Part shown: positions 2,472 to 36,144 of the stretch, piece after piece
Numbering within the stretch: the stretch's first letter is position 1
How the letters are laid out: every line of letters begins with the position of its first letter
DNA from: a virus
IMG/VR virus record: IMGVR_UViG_3300022744_000067
Location: 1 to 38,139 of that record
Reading direction: 5' to 3' (one strand)
DNA length: 38,139 nt
Made by a program: the position numbers and the translations under genes
The notes under the pieces: model-generated
What the model was told of the DNA's origin: nothing
The model's database searches: none
Seen by the model: the letters and a program-made list of their open reading frames with translations, nothing else

Positions 2472-2776
2472 GCCCTGGCCCCCTGCACCCCGTGCCGCTG
2501 CCAGCGCTGCATGTCGCCCAGCGTCACGCCGTGGGCGTAGTGGAAGACGCTCGGGTACTGCTCAGGCGCGCGCCACGTGCTGACCTTGGCGCAACCGACC
2601 GCCCTGTGGGCGTACTTGATGCCCAGCGCCTGGCAGCGCTTGCGGGTCGCCTCTTCACGCACACCGGTGGCCTGCGCCATCTCGGCAAGGGTCTTGCCCT
2701 CCATGCTGCGCAAGATGCGCGCTTCGGTGGGGTGCTCGCGCTCCCACCTCGGGCCGTTGATCTTGCGGCCACCCAT
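2468..2776 (-). CDS. Helix-turn-helix-like early protein of unknown function
   Basis: 102 residues from the ATG at 2776. A GTG one codon earlier (2779) is also possible and would form a GTGA overlap. Residues about 25-52 (SMEGKTLAEMAQATGVREEATRKRCQ) look like a helix-turn-helix of the kind found in sigma-like or Myb-like DNA-binding proteins. An Arg/Lys-rich beginning (GGRKINGPRWERE) comes before it. The C-terminal half is rich in Tyr, His and Trp and has no known motif. It lies between the Cro-like gene and the Cys-rich gene in the leftward operon, so a role in early gene control or origin binding is plausible but unproven. Confidence 0.75.
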   Translation of the reverse strand: MGGRKINGPRWEREHPTEARILRSMEGKTLAEMAQATGVREEATRKRCQALGIKYAHRAVGCAKVSTWRAPEQYPSVFHYAHGVTLGDMQRWQRHGVQGARA

Positions 2777-3078
2777 CACGCACCGCCTTCCGTGGCGGGG
2801 GCCAGGGGTTCAGTCTTGGCGGCGGGGGCCGATACATCGATGGTCGGGACCACCACCAGCACCGGCAGGCCCTTGGGCCAGCCTGCTTCTCGGACCCGAT
2901 GCCATCGAACGTCAGGGTTGAGGGTTTCGGATGGGATGCCAGTCACGCGCTCGATGGCCGGGCACCAGCGAGGAGGCACGCGGCCCTCTTGGTCCCACTT
3001 CGTCAGGCTCGCCGGGCGGATCTTGAGATCCTTGCAGATGCGGGCTTTGAGCCCGCGTTCGTGGAAGAGCTTTGTCAT
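2776..3078 (-). CDS. Cro/YdaS-like DNA-binding protein
   Basis: 100 residues from the ATG at 3078; an upstream GTG (3084) is less likely. Residues 1-60 (MTKLFHERGLKARICKDLKI..SLTKWDQEGRVPPRWCPAIERVTGI) fit the YdaS/Cro helix-turn-helix family, in which a short protein represses its own promoter. It is the first gene of the leftward early operon and is transcribed away from the CI-like gene, the normal position of Cro. The promoter -10 box (3092-3097) lies only 13 bp before the ATG, so the message is nearly leaderless. The C-terminal 40 residues are Pro/Ala-rich and probably disordered. Confidence 0.85.
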   Translation of the reverse strand: MTKLFHERGLKARICKDLKIRPASLTKWDQEGRVPPRWCPAIERVTGIPSETLNPDVRWHRVREAGWPKGLPVLVVVPTIDVSAPAAKTEPLAPATEGGA

Positions 3079-3091
3079 GGGCACGGATCCT

Positions 3092-3120
3092 ATATTACCG
3101 CGTGCGTAACTTCAAGCCAA
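3092..3120 (-). promoter_or_regulatory. Leftward early promoter (PL-like)
   Basis: On the minus strand, -35 TTGGCT (3115-3120) and -10 TAATAT (3092-3097) are separated by 17 bp. The -10 is embedded in GTTAC-N7-GTAATAT. The same GTTAC-N7-GTAATAT block occurs at the rightward promoter (4155-4173), so both early promoters share an operator that covers the -10. It drives the Cro-like gene, the replication initiator and dnaB. Confidence 0.75.
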
Positions 3121-3161
3121 AACGGAGCCTTACCGCGCGATGAACCTACCCGCTCCGGTAA
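3095..3161. promoter_or_regulatory. Left operator cluster (three 15-bp sites)
   Basis: Three sites resemble the perfect palindrome TTACCGCTTCGGTAA found at 4121: TTACCGCGTGCGTAA (3095-3109, 12 of 15), TTACCGCGCGATGAA (3130-3144, about 9 of 15) and TACCCGCTCCGGTAA (3147-3161, 12 of 15). They fill the space between the divergent Cro-like and CI-like genes. The sites were matched by eye; the binding protein is presumably the CI-like and/or Cro-like product. Confidence 0.65.
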
Positions 3162-3176
3162 GCGGTACAAATCCAC

Positions 3177-3563
3177 ATGCGCACCATTCAAGAAATCCGC
3201 TTCCACAACTTCGACCTGTTACTGAAGGAGGCCGGGGATGGGCGGGGTGCGGCCGCGCGCCTAGCCGAACTCACCGGGGTAGCGCCAGGGTTGATTTCGC
3301 AGATCAAGGACAGGAAACCCCGCTCACCTGGGGTGCCCCTGAAGATCGGCGACAAGACGGCGAGGAAGCTAGAGTCCGGAACTGGAAGAACCCAGGGATG
3401 GATGGATATGGATCACAGCGACGCCGAGACAGCCGAAGAAGCGGACGTTCTCGACCTGTTTCGAGGTCTTGATGTAGACCTTCAAGCCCAACTTGTGCAG
3501 CACGCCCGGCACCTTGCCGAGCTGGCCAGGCTGCGGCGGCCAGACAGCACGGAGGGCACGTAG
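3177..3563 (+). CDS. CI-like repressor, short form without peptidase domain
   Basis: 128 residues. The N-terminal part (residues about 1-65) holds a repressor-type helix-turn-helix, with AAARLAELTGVAPGLISQIKDRK as the recognition region. The C-terminal part is an acidic, Leu-rich helix (DVLDLFRGLDVDLQAQLVQHARHL), probably for dimerisation. There is no S24/LexA-type protease domain, so induction by RecA-driven self-cleavage is not expected. The gene diverges from the Cro-like gene across the left operators. There is no clear ribosome binding site, and a TACAAA box at 3166-3171 ends 6 bp before the ATG, which would give a leaderless message as for lambda cI from PRM. It probably maintains lysogeny by binding the TTACCG-type sites. 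Confidence 0.8.
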   Translation: MRTIQEIRFHNFDLLLKEAGDGRGAAARLAELTGVAPGLISQIKDRKPRSPGVPLKIGDKTARKLESGTGRTQGWMDMDHSDAETAEEADVLDLFRGLDVDLQAQLVQHARHLAELARLRRPDSTEGT

Positions 3564-3572
3564 TTACCGGAA

Positions 3573-3603
3573 TTGCACCGCTGCGGTACTTTTGCCCTAC
3601 AAT
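3573..3603 (+). promoter_or_regulatory. Promoter with operator upstream of the small RNA
   Basis: -10 TACAAT (3598-3603) and -35 TTGCAC (3573-3578), with a long 19-bp spacer. The spacer holds GCACCGCTGCGGTAC (3575-3589), which matches the palindromic operator at 4121 in 12 of 15 positions. A TTACCGG half-site (3564-3570) lies directly after the repressor stop codon. The promoter is therefore probably under repressor control. Confidence 0.6.
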
Positions 3604-3605
3604 CG

Positions 3606-3724
3606 CGCCGTCTAGCGTGACGGCAAGACAGAGAATCTAGCCCGAGCCCTTCGGCTCTTGCGTTCCTAGCCCGAAAGGGCCACGCCGTCACGTGGGAGCG
3701 CAAGGCCCGAAGGGCTTTTTCTTT
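3606..3724 (+). ncRNA. Candidate structured phage small RNA with intrinsic terminator
   Basis: About 115 nt between a promoter and a terminator, with no open frame of note. GCGTGACGGC (3615-3624) can pair with GCCGTCACGT (3684-3693), closing a domain with two compact hairpins: GAGCC-CTTC-GGCTC (3644-3657) and GCCC-GAAA-GGGC (3669-3680). A competing local hairpin CCGTC/GACGG (3608-3623) uses the left arm of the long stem. The motif CTAGCCCGA occurs twice. Phage immunity regions are known to encode regulatory RNAs (for example C4-type antisense RNAs), but I cannot assign this one to a family. Confidence 0.6.
3702..3724 (+). terminator. Intrinsic terminator of the small RNA
   Basis: Stem AAGGCCC / GGGCTTT with a GAA loop (one G-U pair), followed by TTTTTCTTT. 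It lies 3' of the folded domain and points away from the repressor gene. Confidence 0.8.
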
Positions 3725-4075
3725 GCGTCTCCCTGGGAAGGGCGGCGATCCAGAGACACAGCAGCTACCGGGCATGCATCGGCCCGCACCGCACAACAGA
3801 CCGACACGGCGCACGAGACGCCCGACCCCTGCGGGCATGGTGTACGCAGGGGGACCATCCGGGCGACGGCCGATCAGCCGACTCGGGAACGCGGCGTAAC
3901 GGGTTGATTCGGGCAGGGATGCGCTCCCCTGGTTTGGCTACCCACCAGACGAACGAGCGAGCCGCCGATGTGGTCCCGCAGGGGTTTCAGGTCTTGAAGA
4001 CAGGGATGCAGGTCGGGGGATCAACCCAACCCCCTGCATAGGCGCCCGCATGCCCTGAAATGACACCCGGATTCG
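3725..4075. other. Non-coding stretch with two strong inverted repeats
   Basis: No convincing gene is present; short frames here lack ribosome binding sites and family resemblance. CCCCTGCG (3826-3833) pairs with CGCAGGGG (3845-3852) across 11 bp. ATGCA plus GGGGG (4006-4010, 4015-4019) pairs with CCCCC plus TGCAT (4030-4039), leaving a 4-nt bulge. Neither hairpin is followed by a T run. They could be transcript structures or protein sites upstream of the right operators. Confidence 0.5.
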
Positions 4076-4170
4076 TTACCGCGCCGAGTGCGTGACTGAT
4101 TGCGCATCCTCGGCACGACATTACCGCTTCGGTAAAAATAATGCTTGCGGCGTCGTTACCGCGCATGTAA
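4076..4170. promoter_or_regulatory. Right operator cluster (three 15-bp sites)
   Basis: TTACCGCGCCGAGTG (4076-4090, weak), TTACCGCTTCGGTAA (4121-4135, a perfect palindrome) and TTACCGCGCATGTAA (4156-4170). The last one overlaps the -10 of the rightward promoter. The 35-bp step from 4121 to 4156 equals the step from 3095 to 3130 in the left cluster. Confidence 0.7.
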
Positions 4171-4173
4171 TAT
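4145..4173 (+). promoter_or_regulatory. Rightward early promoter (PR-like)
   Basis: -35 TTGCGG (4145-4150) and -10 TAATAT (4168-4173) with a 17-bp spacer. The operator at 4156-4170 covers most of the spacer and the start of the -10. It drives the rightward early operon, whose first gene starts 46 bp downstream. Confidence 0.75.
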
Positions 4174-8913: not shown

Positions 8914-9111
8914 ATGACCAAGCCCACCCGACCCGCCGCCCTGCCCCGCGCAATGGGCACCCGCAAGCAGACCACGCCGACCCCGGCGCGGATTACTGCT
9001 GACACCAAGGTCACCATCGCACCGGCCCCGCGCGATCGCTGGGATGCTGAGTCGACGATGGTCCCGCACTTTTCGGCCGTGCGCTACGGCCAGCAGGAGC
9101 CCCAGCAATGA
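8914..9111 (+). CDS. Small basic early protein, unknown function
   Basis: 65 residues (MTKPTRPAALPRAMGTRKQ...ending RWDAESTMVPHFSAVRYGQQEPQQ). The first half is Pro-, Thr- and Arg-rich and likely disordered. The C-terminal part has a more ordered look (DRWDAE..VPHFSAVRYG). A hairpin (GGGCGC near 8880, GCGCCC near 8900) lies between the upstream stop and this start. A second small frame (9108-9149, 13 codons) overlaps its stop and leads into the PP-loop gene. Confidence 0.6.
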   Translation: MTKPTRPAALPRAMGTRKQTTPTPARITADTKVTIAPAPRDRWDAESTMVPHFSAVRYGQQEPQQ

Positions 9112-9151
9112 CCAACGCCGAGATCCACAAAGCACGGGGAGTGAAATAGTG

Positions 9152-9889
9152 ATGTACGTCATTTCTGCCAGCTACGGAAACGACAGCATGGCAATGATCC
9201 AGTGGGCGCACGAGCGCGGCTTGTCGGGCGTCTATGTCGTCTACTGCGACACCGGATGGGCTGCGCCTGGGTGGTCCGCGCGCATTGCTGAAGGCGAGGC
9301 GCTAGCCAAGTCGCACGGCTTCACGCCGCACCGCGTGGAAAGCATCGGCATGGAAGAGCTGGTGCGAATGAAGCAGGGATTCCCGGGCAATGCACAGCAG
9401 TTCTGCACCGCGCACCTCAAGGGCCTGCCGTTCCTCGAATGGATCGAGGCAGCGGACCCCGAGCGCCGCGCCGTGGTCCTGATCGGCAAGCGCCGAGAGG
9501 AATCGCCAGCGCGGGCAGACACGCCAGAGTTCATCGAGTCCAGCGAGTACCACGCGGGCCGCAAGGTGTGGCACCCGCTCTACCTGCACACGGAGGCGAT
9601 GCGCGACAGCCTGCTCAAGCGTGCCGGCGTGCAGATCCTCCCGCACCGCTCCGACGAGTGCTTTCCGTGCGTCAACTCAAACCGCGCCGACTTCCTGCGC
9701 TTGACTCCTGGCGCTATCGAGCGCGTGTGCAGCCTGGAGGTCGAGACGAGTCAGCCGATGTTCCGTGCCAAGCGCTTCGGCGCGCTCGGGATTCATGGCG
9801 TCATCGCATGGGCCAAGGATGGACGCGACCGTGGATCCATCGACGATGAAGAGGCCGCCTGCGCCGGGCTTTTCGGCTGCGGCTTGTAA
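9152..9889 (+). CDS. PAPS reductase-like PP-loop enzyme
   Basis: 245 residues from ATG 9152, with GGGGAG 9 nt upstream; a GTG at 9149 is the alternative. The N-terminal SASYGNDSMA (residues 5-14) is the PP-loop (SxGxDS) that binds the ATP-derived phosphates. The region near 25-31 (YCDTGW) and QFCTAHLKGLPF near 88-99 fit the phosphoadenosine phosphosulfate reductase family. Two further Cys groups, ECFPCVN near 169 and CAGLFGCGL at the C-terminus, may bind metal or an iron-sulfur cluster. Phage members are widespread, and a sulfur-transfer or nucleic-acid-modification role is suspected but not shown. Assimilatory sulfate reduction is unlikely because no partner genes are present. Confidence 0.8.
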   Translation: MYVISASYGNDSMAMIQWAHERGLSGVYVVYCDTGWAAPGWSARIAEGEALAKSHGFTPHRVESIGMEELVRMKQGFPGNAQQFCTAHLKGLPFLEWIEAADPERRAVVLIGKRREESPARADTPEFIESSEYHAGRKVWHPLYLHTEAMRDSLLKRAGVQILPHRSDECFPCVNSNRADFLRLTPGAIERVCSLEVETSQPMFRAKRFGALGIHGVIAWAKDGRDRGSIDDEEAACAGLFGCGL

Positions 9890-12585: not shown

Positions 12586-12875
12586 GCCCGCTGCACCTGA
12601 CCGACGCCGAAATCGCGGATATCTGCCAGCCGCTGCAGCAGCCAGCCGCCCAGGTGCGGCACCTGCGCGCGCTCGGCCTCACCGTGAGCACGAAGCCCAA
12701 CGGCCGCCCGCTCGTGATTCGCTCACATGCCGAGGCGGTGCTGTCTGGCCATCGCGCTCCCGCGCCGGCGCAGACGGCCGAAAACACCACCAGCGCAGGC
12801 CCCGACAAGGCCGCGCTGATCCTCCGATTCGGAAACCGCCGCCATGGGTCGACCACGAAAGCACAACCCGCTTAA
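12582..12875 (+). CDS. DUF4224-family protein, probable excisionase-like partner of integrase
   Basis: 97 residues from ATG 12582. Residues 1-50 (LHLTDAEIADICQPLQQPAAQVRHLRALGLTVSTKPNGRPLVIRSHAEAVL) fit DUF4224, a small winged-helix-like domain. It is almost always found just before a phage tyrosine integrase, and an Xis or DNA-architecture role is suspected. It overlaps the integrase gene by 32 bp. The C-terminal 40 residues are Pro/Ala-rich and probably disordered. Confidence 0.75.
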   Translation: MSPLHLTDAEIADICQPLQQPAAQVRHLRALGLTVSTKPNGRPLVIRSHAEAVLSGHRAPAPAQTAENTTSAGPDKAALILRFGNRRHGSTTKAQPA

Positions 12876-13944
12876 CCTGCCGCCGCGCGTCTACGCGAAG
12901 CATGGCGCGTTCTACTACCACCACCCGGCAGGCAGGTGGGAGCACCTCGGCCGCGACCTCGATGCGGTCAAGCGCCGGGCGGCCGAGATCGTGCACGGCC
13001 AGGGCGATGGGTTCGGCACGGTGGCCTATCACCTCGACCAGTTCCTGATCGCCTGCAAGGCACGCGTGAAGGTCAACGACCTGGCGCCGCGCACCCTTGA
13101 GGACTACACGCGCGACAGCGAGCCGCTGAAGGCGTTCTTCGGGCGGATGTACCCGCAAGGCGTGGAGCCCAAGCACGTCGCCGACTACCTGGACACCGGC
13201 CTTGAGATGGGCCGGGCAGTGCGTGCGAATCGCGAGAAGGCTTGCCTGTCGGCCATGTTCACCTGGCTGATCCGCACCGGAGAGGGCGGCGTCCAAACGA
13301 ACCCCTGCAAGGGCGTGAAGCGCAACAGGGAGACGAAGCGGGTCCGCTACGTCGAGGACGACGAGATGCACGAGACGCTGAAGAACGCCCCGGTGCAGGT
13401 GTGGGCCATGGCAGAGCTCGTCTACCGGACCCTGCAGCGGCCCGAGGACATCATCACCTGGACGCCCCGGAACATCGTCGAGCGCCGAGACTCGAGCGGC
13501 GCGCTGGTGCGGATCATCCGCGTCGGCCAGGCCAAGACCGGGGCCGCCGTCGACATCCTGGTCACGCCCGAGATCGACGCCGTGCTCGCGCGGGTCAAGG
13601 CCGCGGACACGAAGAAGGACGGGAAGGTGATCACAGGCCTAACGCTGATCCACCGCCGCGACGGCAAGCCCTACACCTACGACGGCCTGTGCAGCATGCT
13701 CAAGCGCCGGCAGGAAGAGGTGCGAGATCTGCACGCCATCAAGCGCGGCCCGCTGGCCGAAATGCCCTCGTGGGGCTTCTACGACATGAAGGGCAAGGGC
13801 GCCACCGACATGTGGCTGTCAGGCGTGCCGCTGGAGCGCATCCAGGTGCTGTGCGGCCACGACTCAGTGACCACCACCGAGCGCTACGTCAAGAGCCGAT
13901 GGCGCGGCATCGTGGCGCCGAACACCGTCGCCCGCGCTGTCTGA
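12844..13944 (+). CDS. int: Tyrosine integrase
   Basis: 366 residues. The N-terminal region (GRPRKHNPLNLPPRVYAKHGAFYYHHPAGRWEHLG) is an arm-type DNA-binding domain. A core-binding domain follows near residues 55-160, and the catalytic domain near 165-366. Visible catalytic residues are Arg199 (TLQRPED), Lys231 (QAKTG), His339 (LCGHDSVTTTE) and Tyr348 (ERYVK). The usual HxxR box reads Y313-D-M-K316, so His and Arg are replaced by Tyr and Lys. It lies next to a tRNA-Asn type attachment core 120 bp downstream. It catalyses recombination between attP and the host tRNA-Asn gene. Confidence 0.95.
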   Translation: MGRPRKHNPLNLPPRVYAKHGAFYYHHPAGRWEHLGRDLDAVKRRAAEIVHGQGDGFGTVAYHLDQFLIACKARVKVNDLAPRTLEDYTRDSEPLKAFFGRMYPQGVEPKHVADYLDTGLEMGRAVRANREKACLSAMFTWLIRTGEGGVQTNPCKGVKRNRETKRVRYVEDDEMHETLKNAPVQVWAMAELVYRTLQRPEDIITWTPRNIVERRDSSGALVRIIRVGQAKTGAAVDILVTPEIDAVLARVKAADTKKDGKVITGLTLIHRRDGKPYTYDGLCSMLKRRQEEVRDLHAIKRGPLAEMPSWGFYDMKGKGATDMWLSGVPLERIQVLCGHDSVTTTERYVKSRWRGIVAPNTVARAV

Positions 13945-14064: not shown

Positions 14065-14112
14065 GGACTGTTAATCCGTAGGTCCCTGGTTCGAGCCCAG
14101 GTCGGGGAGCCA
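14065..14112 (+). other. 3' half of tRNA-Asn(GTT) (attachment core)
   Basis: It begins GGACTGTTAATCC (anticodon arm, anticodon GTT). The T arm is CCTGG-TTCGAGC-CCAGG, and the fragment ends TCGGGGA-G-CCA. The anticodon-to-end part equals a betaproteobacterial tRNA-Asn. No 5' half with a matching acceptor strand (TCCCCGA) is found upstream, so it is not a full tRNA gene. On integration it would restore the 3' end of the host gene. Confidence 0.85.
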
Positions 14113-14264: not shown

Positions 14265-14639
14265 ATGCGCCAAGCCGAATTCCACCGCTACACCTACACC
14301 GACTACCTGGGCCGGGTGCGGACCACGCGGCACCACCTGACGGCAGAAGACGCCGCCCAGCAGCTGGGGCCGAGCGCGCAGGTTCTGCCCGGGTCGACCG
14401 TGGTGCGCTGGTTGCGCGAGACGCCGGCCGAGATGGCCAGGCTGAGCACGGGAACGGGGATCATCGGGCCTGGCAGTCAGGCCGACGAGATCCGGGCGCT
14501 ATCGGCTCAGCGCGTCATAGCTGGCGGCGCAGAGCTCGCCGGAGGCTCGGGAGGCGTCAGCGACTTCAGCCAGCCGTCGAACGCGGTCGACGCAGCGGCT
14601 GAGCAGCTCGGCAGGCATTCCGGGATCGGCGCCGGCTGA
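14265..14639 (+). CDS. Small phage protein, convergent with and overlapping Rz/Rz1
   Basis: 124 residues. Residues 1-60 (MRQAEFHRYTYTDYLGRVRTTRHHLTAEDAAQQLG..PGSTVVRWLRETPAE) resemble a small phage protein type with a RYTDxxGR..TTR..M start. Related proteins usually end shortly after this part. Here the frame runs on for about 45 residues that lie antisense to Rz and Rz1 (from 14499). The tail is Gly/Ala/Ser-rich and may be an accident of the high-GC antisense strand. Function unknown. Confidence 0.6.
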   Translation: MRQAEFHRYTYTDYLGRVRTTRHHLTAEDAAQQLGPSAQVLPGSTVVRWLRETPAEMARLSTGTGIIGPGSQADEIRALSAQRVIAGGAELAGGSGGVSDFSQPSNAVDAAAEQLGRHSGIGAG

Positions 14640-28521: not shown

Positions 28522-29343
28522 TTCAGATTCCTTTTTCAGTTGGTAGAACACGACTGACGGTGACCGCCCCATGCGATCGCCGATCTCTTTGAACGTGAGC
28601 CCTTCGGCCCTCAACCTCACCATTTCGGCAACTTCCGCCGCCGCTGGAGAGTTGGCCTTCGGCCTTGGGATGCCGCGCGTGGCAGCGTGCATAGCGCGCA
28701 GCTTCTGCCTCGTCTCTTCAGACATGGCTTTTGGCAGGTTGGCGATTGCCTTTGCCACTCTGTCCGGACGCCTCCCCGCCTCCACCATCTTCTGAATGGA
28801 TTCAGCGGAGTGCCGACGCCCCTTCATTGGGCTTGGCTTCCCGGTTTGCCGTTCAGCGGCTGCTGCGCGCGCGCGAGCGCTTGAGAACTGCTTCGCGGCG
28901 GCCTCGCGCAGTTTCTGACGATGCTCATCAGACTTCCGGCGCCCGCTCGCTGCTGCGCTCATCTTCTGCCTGGTCTCAGGGCTCTTTGGAACGCCCGCGC
29001 GTTCCATGCTGAATCGGTCCTTCATGGACTGTGGCTGGGGCACGCCGGCGCGAGTCCCAGCCACCGGGGCCACGTTGTAACCGTGCCTTGGATCTCCCGC
29101 TTTGAGGGCGTTGATCCAGTGCTGCTCTCTCACCAGCAAGTCGCCACTCTCCACAAGCTCCAAGACCTTGAAGCAGAAGGCCCCGGGGCCGTTCTTACTC
29201 CAGGATCTCTGCAACTGCGGGGAGTGGTGCGTGCCGTTCTTCAGCATGCTCCGATGAGACTTCCACCGTGCCCTGATATCAACAGCTGACCCTATGTAGT
29301 GCTTGCCGTTGATTGCGTTGCTGATCGCGTAAACCCCGCGCAT
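28276..29343 (-). CDS. GIY-YIG homing endonuclease, open in frame into the head gene
   Basis: The frame gives 355 residues from ATG 29343, of which about 274 are the endonuclease. Residues 1-85 contain GVYAISNAINGKHYIGSA, the RARWKSH arginine, and EQHWINAL plus GYNVAP, all GIY-YIG nuclease elements. Four NUMOD3-type repeats follow (SPETRQKMS, SDEHRQKL, SAESIQKM, SEETRQKL). The end is a helix-turn-helix (EMVRLRAEGLTFKEIGDRMGRSPSVVFYQL). It is a free-standing selfish element between the capsid and head genes. An RBS-masking hairpin precedes it. Confidence 0.85.
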   Translation of the reverse strand: MRGVYAISNAINGKHYIGSAVDIRARWKSHRSMLKNGTHHSPQLQRSWSKNGPGAFCFKVLELVESGDLLVREQHWINALKAGDPRHGYNVAPVAGTRAGVPQPQSMKDRFSMERAGVPKSPETRQKMSAAASGRRKSDEHRQKLREAAAKQFSSARARAAAAERQTGKPSPMKGRRHSAESIQKMVEAGRRPDRVAKAIANLPKAMSEETRQKLRAMHAATRGIPRPKANSPAAAEVAEMVRLRAEGLTFKEIGDRMGRSPSVVFYQLKKESEMAKFKGPEGITSVSVGGEEFNVDKDGCIVVPDSIEGAHVALASHGFVGVSDPAAEKAAAKAAAQAAKAATDAAKGTAPDAA

Positions 29344-29344
29344 A

Positions 29345-29372
29345 GAACCCTCTTGAGTGAACAAGAGGATTC
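29345..29372 (-). promoter_or_regulatory. Hairpin masking the endonuclease ribosome binding site
   Basis: On the minus strand GAATCCTCTTG (29362-29372) pairs with CAAGAGGGTTC (29345-29355), 11 pairs including one G-U, around a 6-nt loop. AGAGGG, the ribosome binding site for ATG 29343, lies inside the second arm. Such masking keeps homing endonucleases silent in long transcripts of some phages such as T4. Confidence 0.75.
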
Positions 29373-29387
29373 TATTTGCCGCCTACG

Positions 29388-30902
29388 TTAGGCAACGTTT
29401 TTAATCAGGCCGATTGCGGGCGGAAAGTAGTGCTGGAGCACTTCATCCACATACACGCCGTACTCGTACTTGCGGGTACGCAGCGGCCACTCGATCTGGT
29501 GGTACTCGCGGCGGGTGCGCACGCGGTCCAGCGAGGTCACGCCGTCCAGGTAGGCGGGCACCTGGGTCGTGCGGAAGAACATCGTGCCGGGCGGCATGTT
29601 CGGGTGCACGATCAGGTCGATCACCTGGCCAGTGATGGGCGAGAGGTACTTGCCCACGTTGCGGCCGGCGGTCAGCGCCTGGGTGGCGCTGTTGGGGTCG
29701 ACGGTGAACATGACGTTCGGGTTCGTCTGGCCCAACACCAGGTTGGTGATCTTCTGGAACTGGCGGAACGAGAGGTGAATCTCGTTCGGCTGCAGGCGGT
29801 ACTTGTCGAACCAGACCGCGAGGGCCGTGTCGATCTCCACCACGCGGCCACCGGCGCCCGTGAGCGTGGTGCCGACGCCCGGCGTGCCGGTGGGCAGTGC
29901 CTGGTAGTAGCTGCCCAGCGCCGACTTGCTGGCGATGGTCAGCAGGCCGTCGAACTCCAGGCCGGAGGTCGAAGCGTCCGCCGAGGGCAGGGTCGACGCA
30001 AGCTGGTTGCTGCCGCCGGTCAGCGCGGTGATGGACACGCTGTTGATCGTGGTCACAGCACCCAGGCGCTCGGAGCCGGCCGGGCCCCAGAACCAGGCGT
30101 AGGCCACGGCGCCGCGGACATCAGCCACGGTGCCGGTGACCGAGCCGGTGCCGCCGGTCACAGACACGGTGGCGGCGGCCGACTTCTGCGCGGTGCCCGC
30201 GTTCACGGTGTCGGTCGAGCCGTCAGCGTTGGTGCGGGTGATCTGCGCGCGGACCAGGGCGGTGGTGGCGTCGAACGACTGGCCGGACTGGCCGTTGTTG
30301 ATGCCGGCCACGTCCCAGTACGACTGCAGGCCCAGGGCCACGACGATGACCGAGAGGGTCTGCGTGGCCAGCGTGCCGCCGGTGGTGCTGGCGGCCAGGG
30401 TCGGCGTCGGGGTCGTGCCCATCGCGAGCGAGGTGTTGCCGCCCAAGAGGATCATCTCTTCCTCGAGCATCACGGACTCCAGGGTCTGCTGGACAGCCAG
30501 CGCCTTGACGTCCTCGAAGCCCTTGGCGGCGTAGTCGGCCTCGAAGGTCACCGACTTTTCCAGGCCCAGGCCACGGTAGGCCGCGAAGTACTCGGCGCTC
30601 GTGTGGCTGACCTGGGCGCCGCGGTTGCCCTCGGAGATGCCAGCACGCACGCGGGTCGTGTTGATGCCGGTGATCGCCCGCCAGTTGGCCTGGACAGCGA
30701 AGCCGCCACCCACGCGCGGGATGCTGTTGCGCAGCGGCGTGAGCAGCGGGTACAGCTTCTTCGACGGCGCTTCCAGGTCATAGCCCTGGATGCCGGCGGT
30801 GGCGCTGCCGGGCTGCGTGAAGTTCTTGGTCAGTTCATCGACGGCCTGGGCTTGCGAGGTCTTCACCAGCTCCAGGATTTCGCTCATGTTCAAGGCGGAC
30901 AT
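29388..30902 (-). CDS. Major capsid protein (HK97 fold) with inserted domain
   Basis: 504 residues, GAAAGGA before ATG 30902. It begins MSALNMSEILELVKTSQAQAVDELTKNF, then LLTPLRNSIPRVGGGFAVQANWRAI and EKSVTFEADYAAKGFEDVKALAVQQTLESVMLEEEMILLGGN, and ends DRVRTRREYHQIEWPLRTRKYEYGVYVDEVLQHYFPPAIGLIKNVA. This is an HK97-type capsid with a long E-loop-like region. The central part (DGSTDTVNAGTAQKSAAATVSVTGGTGSVTG) looks like an inserted Ig-like surface domain. It follows the protease gene and precedes the homing endonuclease. Confidence 0.9.
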   Translation of the reverse strand: MSALNMSEILELVKTSQAQAVDELTKNFTQPGSATAGIQGYDLEAPSKKLYPLLTPLRNSIPRVGGGFAVQANWRAITGINTTRVRAGISEGNRGAQVSHTSAEYFAAYRGLGLEKSVTFEADYAAKGFEDVKALAVQQTLESVMLEEEMILLGGNTSLAMGTTPTPTLAASTTGGTLATQTLSVIVVALGLQSYWDVAGINNGQSGQSFDATTALVRAQITRTNADGSTDTVNAGTAQKSAAATVSVTGGTGSVTGTVADVRGAVAYAWFWGPAGSERLGAVTTINSVSITALTGGSNQLASTLPSADASTSGLEFDGLLTIASKSALGSYYQALPTGTPGVGTTLTGAGGRVVEIDTALAVWFDKYRLQPNEIHLSFRQFQKITNLVLGQTNPNVMFTVDPNSATQALTAGRNVGKYLSPITGQVIDLIVHPNMPPGTMFFRTTQVPAYLDGVTSLDRVRTRREYHQIEWPLRTRKYEYGVYVDEVLQHYFPPAIGLIKNVA

Positions 30903-33319: not shown

Positions 33320-36144
33320 ACAGGCCCCCACGTGTCACCGGGGACCCCAGTGCCGCGGATCAGAACGCCGTTGACGTACCGCACATCGACTTGCAGCGCA
33401 GGCCCCGACGCCCCCGCAATGTAGGCACGGCCCGGGTCCATTTGGATGGAGCCAGGGCCTGAAGCGATAACGCTGGTCCCGTCGCTGCGCCGCAGGTAGC
33501 CGCCAGTGACTAGCAGCACGCCCGCGCTCACCGTGTTCTGCAGCCTTGCGTCAACCACCGAGGTGTTGATCAGGTAGTTTGAAGAATCATCTGCAGTGAC
33601 TGCGTTGTGCATCAGGCGCACGCCGTCAGCCGTGGTGTTCGCCCATCGAGCCCACGCGTAGACGCGCTGCACGCTGGTAACGCCGTCAGGGTCGTTCGTG
33701 TCGATCTGCAGGTTCTGGTAGTCCGGCGTGAACTCGGTGCAGGTGCTGCCGTCGATGGCGTTGGCGACATACACCGTGTCGGTCGTTTGAGTGCACAGGA
33801 ACGTCGCGCCACCAGATGTAAGCACCGCGGTCAGCTCTTGCGGCAGCAGGCCCGTCTTGGCCCAGCGCAGGCGCAGCGTCTTCGCGCCAGAGAAAACCTG
33901 CGAGTAGGTAAGCTGCCCAGCTGCTACGTCGTTCAAGATCTCCACGTTGTCCGTGGCGTTGAACAACTGGTAGCGCGCACCAACAGGCATGCCGGACGAG
34001 GCAATCACCACTGTCGTCTTGGTGCCGGCGGCGTCGGTGTAGCTACCGCTGATTGCTCCCGCGCCGGACAGAACCACGGTGTAGGTGGTCGTGAACGTGC
34101 TCGCCGTGCTGTCGGCTGTGATGTGGATGGCCCTGCTCAGGTTCGCCGTCTGGCACAGGTCGGCATTGCAGGCCTGATAGACCTGGGCCGGCGTCAGCGA
34201 GCCGGCCACCGTGATGGTCTGCGTGGTGTGGTTGACAGCCACGGGCAAAGCCAGCGCGGCAGCCTCGGACAGCGTGATGCGGGGGTCAGCGATCACGTAG
34301 GGAGTTTCGTTGTCCAGTTCGTAGCCGAAGTGGCGGGCAGACTGAACGAAAGCACCATCCGGCACGCCATCAAACCAGACGGTTCCTCCCGCACCTTTTA
34401 CCGTCAATCGAACCGTGACTTGCCCATTCGCCGTGAGCGTTACATCGCGGGTGATTTTGTTCCACGTGTCGATGTTTGCCGGCGCGGTGTCCACCGAGCT
34501 AGCGCCCGGCGCCGAGATGGACATAACTGGCGGGCTGGCTGTGCCGTAGGTACTGTCAACACGCACGTAGGCGACGATCCTGTAGGTCGCCCCCGACTTT
34601 CCAGTGAACTTCACGTCGAATGGGGTGGAAACGTTTGCGGTCGTACTATCCGCACCTGGCTGAATCTTCAGCGACTTTGGCCCCCTGATGCGCTGTGCGG
34701 CGTCTGTCGAAAAGAAAGCCCCCTGCTTCCACATGCGGCTGTCGGTGGTGTCCCCGTTGATTCCCACGATCTGGACATAACCCCCCTTTAGCGCAGATGG
34801 CGTCGTGACCATCGCGTTTAGAGCACTACCTGAAACGGTAACGTTTGAAACGTCAATGTAGGCCTCTGAGCCTGCATTGAAGACGTTGGAACCTGTAGAT
34901 GTGACGCCGCGAATTACGCTGTCGCTTATTGCCACCTGTGTGGTGTCGAACGCCACACGCTGCAGCCCTTCCATGATGCATCGCTCGACCTTGATCCCAT
35001 AGCCGACGTTAAGGCCGTAAATCCCATTGGTGCAATAGAACTCAGAGTCTGAGAAGGTGACGCCGACTGGCGTTTCGCTAGCCTGACCTCCGCGCAGGAA
35101 TGTATTTCCGCCAATCACATACGCCCGGCTAAATTTTCCAGACGGGGCGCCGAGCGTGAACCAATTGTTCTGGTTCGTGACGTAGCAAACCAGATCCTGC
35201 ATGTCGATCTGCGGTTGCGACCAAACGTGAAGCAGCCCTGTGCCCGAGGCGTTTGCTTGAGCCGCACCCGGTGCTGCTGCAAGCGTGAATTCGTGCAGAG
35301 ACATACCCTGCATGTCTCCGACCGTTGCTGCATTTGCCTTCTGCAGCCACACGGTCCCACCAGGAGTGCCGATTCCACCGCAACAGACTTCGACGTTGGA
35401 CAATTCGATGCTGCCGGTCGGGTTCAGCAGTAGGCCTGTGGCCCACACTGTGCTGCTGTATGAGCCGATGCGGACGTTTCGGGTGAGGTTCACCACACGC
35501 GTGCCATTCGCATGTGCATACGTGAGCGGCGAGTTCAGGCCAATTGTGACCGGCCCTGTGCCAGAGATTGACGTAATGAAGCGCGATTCGCGCTGCTCAG
35601 GCATATTCGCCGTGATCGTTGCGGCAAGATCACCGCCCAGTCCGATTCGGTCGCCGATGGACCAGCCGGATGCTTCGGCAACGAAGATGGAAGGTGCGGC
35701 AACCGCAGTTGCAGCACTAGTCTTTGTTGCGTAGGTCTTTGGTGCGCCATAGAACGAGACATCCTTGGCGCCATTGCTTTGCCCAAAGTTCGCGGCGTAT
35801 TTGGCGTTTGCCAGGGTGGCGCTGTCGTTCAGTAGGAGCGTGGCAGTCACGCCGGCCGGAATTGGGCTTGCCTTGGTTCCGTAGTCAATGTTGGCCGTAG
35901 TCGCACCATTGGTGCGAATAGTTCCGCGAACAGCCAGTGACGAAGACACTGTTCGAGAAGCTCGAAGCGTCCCGTTGATCACCCCTGCGTTCGCAGAGTC
36001 GTCGCCAACACGATACGACCCGTCTACCGTCACCACGTGACCGGCAGCGATCACAAACGCATCCCCAAGCACTGGCACGACACCCCCCACCCAAGTCGAG
36101 GTCGCGGACCAGTTGCCGGTCTGGGCGGAAGTGATGCTAGCCAT
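33316..36144 (-). CDS. Large G8-type surface/adhesion protein inside the head cluster
   Basis: 942 residues; it overlaps the portal end by 8 bp and the next gene by GTGA. The N-terminus (MASITSAQTGNWSATSTWVGGVVPVLGDAFVIAAGHVVTVDGS) fits a G8 domain. The next part is Gly/Asn/Thr-rich with the regular turns of a beta-helix (residues about 120-460). A carbohydrate-binding-like beta sandwich follows near 500-620 (TYRIVAYVRVDSTYGTAS...WFDGVPDGAF). The C-terminal third has further beta repeats. There is no membrane segment or signal peptide. Visibly lower GC than neighbours marks it as an insertion. It may be a capsid-bound adhesin or decoration; a tail spike is less likely given its place between portal and head genes. 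Confidence 0.75.
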   Translation of the reverse strand: MASITSAQTGNWSATSTWVGGVVPVLGDAFVIAAGHVVTVDGSYRVGDDSANAGVINGTLRASRTVSSSLAVRGTIRTNGATTANIDYGTKASPIPAGVTATLLLNDSATLANAKYAANFGQSNGAKDVSFYGAPKTYATKTSAATAVAAPSIFVAEASGWSIGDRIGLGGDLAATITANMPEQRESRFITSISGTGPVTIGLNSPLTYAHANGTRVVNLTRNVRIGSYSSTVWATGLLLNPTGSIELSNVEVCCGGIGTPGGTVWLQKANAATVGDMQGMSLHEFTLAAAPGAAQANASGTGLLHVWSQPQIDMQDLVCYVTNQNNWFTLGAPSGKFSRAYVIGGNTFLRGGQASETPVGVTFSDSEFYCTNGIYGLNVGYGIKVERCIMEGLQRVAFDTTQVAISDSVIRGVTSTGSNVFNAGSEAYIDVSNVTVSGSALNAMVTTPSALKGGYVQIVGINGDTTDSRMWKQGAFFSTDAAQRIRGPKSLKIQPGADSTTANVSTPFDVKFTGKSGATYRIVAYVRVDSTYGTASPPVMSISAPGASSVDTAPANIDTWNKITRDVTLTANGQVTVRLTVKGAGGTVWFDGVPDGAFVQSARHFGYELDNETPYVIADPRITLSEAAALALPVAVNHTTQTITVAGSLTPAQVYQACNADLCQTANLSRAIHITADSTASTFTTTYTVVLSGAGAISGSYTDAAGTKTTVVIASSGMPVGARYQLFNATDNVEILNDVAAGQLTYSQVFSGAKTLRLRWAKTGLLPQELTAVLTSGGATFLCTQTTDTVYVANAIDGSTCTEFTPDYQNLQIDTNDPDGVTSVQRVYAWARWANTTADGVRLMHNAVTADDSSNYLINTSVVDARLQNTVSAGVLLVTGGYLRRSDGTSVIASGPGSIQMDPGRAYIAGASGPALQVDVRYVNGVLIRGTGVPGDTWGPV

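Follow-up and report, generated by a model that had tools for sequence, protein, structure and literature searches.

Immunity region and the predicted promoter ahead of the RNA

The window analyzed here is the whole of virus record IMGVR_UViG_3300022744_000067, a 38,139-bp stretch of phage DNA with a G+C content of ~66%. Its control region holds, in order, a Cro/YdaS-like gene, a gene for a CI-like repressor, the RNA at 3610–3724, a 350-nt gap and an early promoter; cI, the RNA and the early operon all share one strand (Table 1). The CI-like repressor gave no Pfam match, and because no S24 peptidase domain was found in it, it is probably not RecA-cleavable. The tRNA-Asn fragment that adjoins the integrase gene is probably attP and is near to beta/gammaproteobacterial tRNA-Asn. 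The early region also contains a phosphoadenosine phosphosulfate reductase-like gene (phrog_424) at 9044–9889, and strong RNA structure is predicted in three other segments as well (14401–14520, 29281–29460 and 35881–36000 (minus); z −4.6 to −5.9).

Table 1. Positions of the features discussed, in the window unless another phage or prophage is named
Feature	Position	Strand	Remarks
Cro/YdaS-like regulator	2776–3084	minus	PF15943, 28.8 bits, slightly under the 30-bit cut-off
Operators and half-site between Cro and CI genes	3095–3109, 3147–3161; half-site 3130–3144		
CI-like repressor, 128 aa	3177–3563	plus	phrog_12107, E = 1e-11
Operator half-site TTACCG	3564–3578		centre about −39 from the RNA start
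Best −35 candidate, TTGCAC	3573–3578	plus	weak; 19-nt spacer to TACAAT
Predicted operator GCACCGCTGCGGTAC	3575–3589		11/14 to TTACCGCNGCGGTAA; in the RNA promoter spacer, between −35 and −10
−10 box, TACAAT	3598–3603	plus	predicted promoter of the RNA
Structured RNA, 115 nt (predicted transcript)	3610–3724	plus	from −10 spacing, fold z, U-tract and non-coding character
Closing stem	3615–3624/3684–3693	plus	MFE fold of 3610–3693; absent from the full-length fold
Leader hexamer UGACGG	3618–3623	plus	5′ strand of the loop–leader pairing
Rod, 5′ arm	3644–3666	plus	11 bp, 1x1 C.C mismatch, 11 bp
Apical hairpin a, GCCC-GAAA-GGGC	3669–3680	plus	GNRA tetraloop
Apical hairpin b, CACG-CCGUCA-CGUG	3681–3694	plus	hexaloop 3685–3690 complements 3618–3623
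Rod, 3′ arm	3695–3717	plus	
U-tract TTTTTCTTT	3716–3724	plus	predicted intrinsic terminator
Non-coding gap before early promoter	3725–4075		fold z = 0.26 (structurally unremarkable); coding scores negative
Early promoter, TTGCGG-17-TAATAT	4145–4173	plus	predicted operators 4121–4135 and 4156–4170
Integrase gene	12844–13944		
tRNA-Asn gene, 3′ part	14066–14112		adjoins the integrase gene
L061 Arc-like gene	518–961	plus	own sequence; weakly matches a phage protein annotated as Arc-like
L061 Arc-like gene	2652–3269	minus	PF03869
Pseudomonas-type rod, first kind	L131 4377–4449, L139 4461–4534, L133 4180–4254, L143 4547–4621, L142 3707–3791, L152 4343–4421		
Pseudomonas-type rod, second kind	L137 4084–4161, L140 4077–4154, L147 4047–4124, L189 4047–4124, L133 4082–4159		

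Transcription of the RNA and its repression in the lysogen are predicted from promoter and operator motifs. With T1, A2 and T6 fixed and at least 5/6 agreement with TATAAT required, the TACAAT box that a first-pass annotation had assigned to the RNA is one of just three qualifying hexamers in the 38-kb window, both strands counted. Taking TTACCGCNGCGGTAA as the operator consensus and at least 11/14 matches as a strong site, we find five predicted strong operators in the 38-kb window (at 3095, 3147, 3575, 4121 and 4156), all of them in the immunity region, against 0.96 per window expected from shuffles, and 8 of the 13 TTACCG/CGGTAA half-sites in the window fall within 3095–4156. An additional half-site, at 4076, follows the non-coding gap. 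The operator copy that the annotation had seen in the promoter spacer is one of the five strong sites; it occupies this spacer as the operators of the two early promoters occupy theirs, and repression of the RNA promoter is the simpler reading of the arrangement. Activation by the repressor may also apply because the RNA promoter resembles that of cI: both have a weak −35, a TACAAW box (TACAAT versus TACAAA) and a half-site near −40 (about −39 versus −40), with the operator at about −28 versus −23.

Predicted fold of the 115-nt RNA

The segment 3605–3724 has a predicted folding energy of −63.1 kcal/mol (z = −5.4; 0 of 200 shuffles were as good) and ranks 7th in fold strength among 1268 half-overlapping windows on both strands. 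The full-length fold is a 22-bp rod, which the first-pass annotation had not described, with a GNRA hairpin and a hexaloop hairpin joined to its apex in a three-way junction. The rod arms are Watson–Crick complementary at 19 of 22 positions, a value reached by 0 of 1000 shuffles (best, 16). The annotation's observation is confirmed as real, and every element that it named is present, the U-tract terminator lying at the 3′ end of the rod. The long closing stem exists as an exact 10-bp helix (helices of at least 10 bp occur in 1.1% of shuffles, a modest result alone), but it is not the main fold at full length, where the rod dominates instead. Its probability in the full-length ensemble is ~0, and it leads only until ~3706 has been transcribed, after which the rod replaces it; as modeled, the closing stem is a co-transcriptional folding intermediate. 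The 5′ hairpin CCGUC/GACGG is likewise present in the sequence but would be mostly lost if the start is G3610. A protein frame across the region, which would have spoken against an RNA, was not found, in that every open reading frame touching the RNA scores negative under a codon model trained on the window phage.

The core of the closing stem is the pairing between the leader hexamer UGACGG and the hexaloop CCGUCA. The leader hexamer is a perfect complement of the hexaloop and stands 20 nt ahead of the rod; shuffled leaders gave such a match at this distance with P = 0.0002. In the model this loop–leader pairing can form alongside the rod, giving a pseudoknot in which hexaloop and leader would be in physical contact.

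The location of the RNA directly after cI raises the question of whether it is simply the terminus of the cI mRNA, acting there as a strong terminator and 3′-stabilizing structure that would insulate cI from the early promoter, with the operator serving for repressor looping or roadblocking. The cI stop codon lies at 3563 and no recognizable terminator precedes the U-tract, so the cI mRNA may end with the same structure in the lysogen; in comparator phages, too, a T-run or terminator separates cI from the early promoter. We regard this explanation as improbable, as it accounts neither for the rare TACAAT box, which stands at the correct distance from both operator and RNA, nor for the loop–leader complementarity, and the two related copies described below head early operons rather than following a repressor gene. 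Phages of the same layout mostly have a small open reading frame after cI, not an operator-controlled RNA, and a few have no clear open reading frame there.

Related copies in phage L061

A covariance model with the window RNA as its sole sequence had only one other match among the relatives searched, at positions 3358–3485 of L061 (37 bits, E = 1.2e-5). L061 belongs to a 31-kb phage contig, and the replication protein encoded there shares 66% identity with that of the window over the N-terminal half. Folded alone, the matched segment gives 11 bp, a 1x1 mismatch, 11 bp, hairpins of 4 bp/4 nt and 5 bp/6 nt, and a U-tract, with the same 28 nt between the rod arms as in the window RNA. A covariance model of these two sequences identified a second copy at L061 323–441 on the minus strand (53 bits, E = 2e-11). 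All 22 rod pairs form in each of the three members, 14 of them changed on both sides, and the core of the 3615–3693 stem recurs in each in differing letters; the compensatory changes that the annotation had proposed looking for are thus present, in a covariation alignment that was fitted to the structure and comprises three copies in two phages. A GNRA tetraloop, a class to which 1 in 32 tetraloops belongs under equal base use, occupies the equivalent place in all three (GAAA, GCGA and GCAA). Leader and hexaloop are complementary at 6/6 positions in the window (UGACGG/CCGUCA) and in both L061 copies (CGGCAC/GUGCCG and CUGCCC/GGGCAG), with the hexamer 20, 18 and 17 nt from the rod and shuffled-leader P values of 0.0002, 0.011 and 0.011, respectively; because the search models did not contain that pairing, both L061 values test it fairly. 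The letters themselves are less alike, with the same pair at 10 of 23 rod positions between the window and L061 (P = 0.013, for a match selected by the model) and similarity at chance level between the window and the second L061 copy. A strict descriptor, drawn from these same three members, asks for 22-nt rod arms with at least 17 pairs, a GNRA hairpin and a hexaloop hairpin whose loop has its complement 12–30 nt upstream of the rod; it retrieved with complementarity only the three in 5.3 Mb of strand. A looser descriptor (any 5- to 8-nt loop, 5-nt match) hit 171 places, and only the strict form was used because the looser one is unspecific. The best reading is that the window RNA and the two L061 copies form a small, apparently undescribed RNA family in which shape is kept over letters, and that every member combines the rod and GNRA hairpin with a hexaloop–leader match and a predicted repressor-controlled promoter upstream.

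Immediately upstream of each L061 copy is a stretch rich in operators, with a separate Arc-like gene on its divergent side. The arrays comprise three CTTCA-N(0-4)-TGAAG palindromes, with no others in the 31 kb, and a set of four GAGTC/GACTC in 40 bp. One copy is preceded by a promoter, TTGACT-17-TACATT, and upstream of the other there is no clear sigma-70 promoter match. The copies head the leftward early operon (excisionase-like gene, towards integrase) and the rightward one (replication gene), in both cases between promoter and first gene and within ~25 nt of a start codon. The U-tract of one copy ends ~20 nt ahead of the first gene, so that expression of the operon would need readthrough; the other copy has no U-tract and continues into the ribosome-binding site. 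At L061 300–335, the leader hexamer CUGCCC of the second copy recurs directly ahead of the Shine–Dalgarno sequence (CCUGCCCAGGAGAU), so the hexaloop of that copy could alternatively mask the ribosome site.

The proximity to start codons is relevant to the possibility that the structure is a promoter-proximal RNase III processing site or mRNA-stabilizing hairpin, of the same general type as the site that RNase III cuts in the lambda N leader. A near-perfect duplex of 22–23 bp amounts to about two helical turns, the L061 copies stand ~25 nt or less from a start codon, and differently designed rods precede start codons in the early operons of Pseudomonas prophages. Since RNase III requires neither a conserved GNRA loop nor loop–leader complementarity, we consider this explanation very improbable. 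The Pseudomonas-type rods resemble the family but were rejected as members, as they have no GNRA loop and no loop–leader match. One kind is a long rod with a two-hairpin apex just upstream of the early-operon start codon and after a conserved CCCGATGCATCCCGCATCCCCTTCCCTTCAC stretch; its apex stems covary, and it has no Rfam match. A second, distinct kind has the apex TGGAATCGTCCGGATC..CCGGCCA and in L133 lies directly ahead of the first.

Scanned at gathering thresholds, the window matched no family of Rfam 15, which includes C4 antisense RNA, in keeping with the annotation's failure to recognize a family (at E ≤ 5 there are two chance-level matches to other families); L061 had no match either. 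Searches for sequence homologues by blastn against phages and plasmids, and with an exact pattern in viral contigs, found none. No homologous locus was recovered when viral contigs were searched with the proteins of the repressor, Cro-like and downstream genes, or genome contigs with the repressor. Operator-pair patterns did match in viral contigs; none of these matches codes for proteins related to those of the control region, and the ones inspected were intragenic sites. The repressor had distant homologues only in 768 proteobacterial genomes, and the immunity-region DNA had short chance matches only in 301 genomes. Arc-like proteins in known phages led to no additional member. Covariance model R3 gave one borderline match in 460 genomes, a scan that is weak evidence because of its first-look limits, and a match of model R1 in genome G044 (L275) proved to be a plain long terminator hairpin. 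An inverted similarity between the RNA and 2735–2768 (71%) was judged to be chance; it runs in the sense of the left mRNA and so is not antisense. Our literature search found no published description of the window or L061 RNA.

Proposed action and comparison with known phage RNAs

The operator, the −10 box, the structure, the position and the three-member family are computed results; together they describe a real, statistically strong and apparently undescribed kind of promoter-proximal structured phage RNA. The window RNA looks like a phage control RNA. We propose, at about even odds, a new small family of repressor-controlled, promoter-proximal structured leader RNAs that fold in two steps and act in cis. 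Once the repressor is off, polymerase would start at ~3610 from the promoter overlapped by the CI operator. In the first folding step, the leader hexamer would pair with the future hexaloop region as the closing stem; in the second, the 22-bp rod and the GNRA and hexaloop hairpins would form, and the hexaloop–leader pairing would stay as a pseudoknot. The U-tract directly 3′ of the rod would stop most transcripts at ~115 nt, rod and U-tract together either halting polymerase to give the 115-nt RNA or allowing passage. The element would act on its own polymerase or transcript, by attenuation or by RNA-mediated antitermination or processing. We infer that it probably acts in cis on the early transcript because the L061 element lies between promoter and first gene in both early operons. 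In the window, a gene-free stretch of 350 nt and then a separate early promoter lie downstream of the RNA, which makes a cis role less obvious there than in L061. In a stronger form of the proposal, which we hold to be doubtful, the RNA would represent a new class of RNA-only regulator, the pseudoknotted rod deciding, without an N/Q-type protein, whether polymerase goes beyond the leader into the lytic operons.

Alternatively, the RNA could be a trans-acting sRNA, silenced in the lysogen by the repressor and released on induction, whose targets would be mRNAs of the host or the phage or else a protein, for example Hfq. Read from the sequence, it has its own promoter, its own terminator, an 8-U tail and a length of 115 nt, and no gene lies within 450 nt downstream. 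Comparable phage sRNAs tied to the lytic phase are known, PreS of lambda and VpdS of VP882 (PMC12197685). These, however, are Hfq-dependent base-pairing RNAs, and the window RNA has no significant target (z below −3) among the phage's own translation starts. Moreover, the fold is conserved between members and the letters are not, and the L061 copies lie in or directly before 5′ UTRs, one of them without a U-tract. We therefore consider a trans-acting role rather unlikely.

Among the RNAs of phage control regions, C4 antisense RNA of P1/P7 is a small structured RNA in an immunity region whose target lies on the very transcript that carries it; the window RNA, in contrast, has no Rfam match, and no ant/icd-like target was found for it. 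Lambda OOP RNA, antisense to cII, and P22 sar RNA, antisense to ant, are likewise short terminated RNAs with their own promoter in a control region, whereas the window RNA is antisense to no gene and has no coding frame opposite. The annotation's description of a structured small RNA holds, in that the RNA is non-coding and has a predicted operator-overlapped promoter and terminator of its own; an immunity RNA of C4, OOP or sar type is not supported, as the RNA is antisense to no neighbor, has no significant target among the phage's own translation starts and matches no such model.

Known RNA elements located between the promoter of a phage repressor and the lytic genes are few; for control of early transcription by an RNA alone, the main example is put of HK022. 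In put-type antitermination, downstream terminators are read through via the zinc-binding domain of the RNA polymerase β′ subunit. The putL and putR RNAs of HK022 are ~70 nt long, form two stem-loops in a V shape, share sequence and need no phage protein (PMC9378689). As in HK022, the L061 elements lie downstream of repressor-controlled early promoters and number two per phage; the window has one copy only, separate from the main early promoter. Unlike put, the window and L061 RNAs have a 22-bp rod, a three-way junction, a GNRA hairpin and a loop–leader match, hardly share letters and, in two of three members, have a U-tract after the rod. The analogy with put is one of placement; the fold differs, and we claim no membership. 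If the proposal is true, a second, unrelated fold in a put-like place would mean that RNA-based control of the lysis–lysogeny decision is more widespread, and that such RNAs have been overlooked because sequence searches are blind to elements conserved in shape. The three-feature descriptor of rod, GNRA hairpin and leader-complementary hexaloop provides a precise pattern with which to search phage databases for them.
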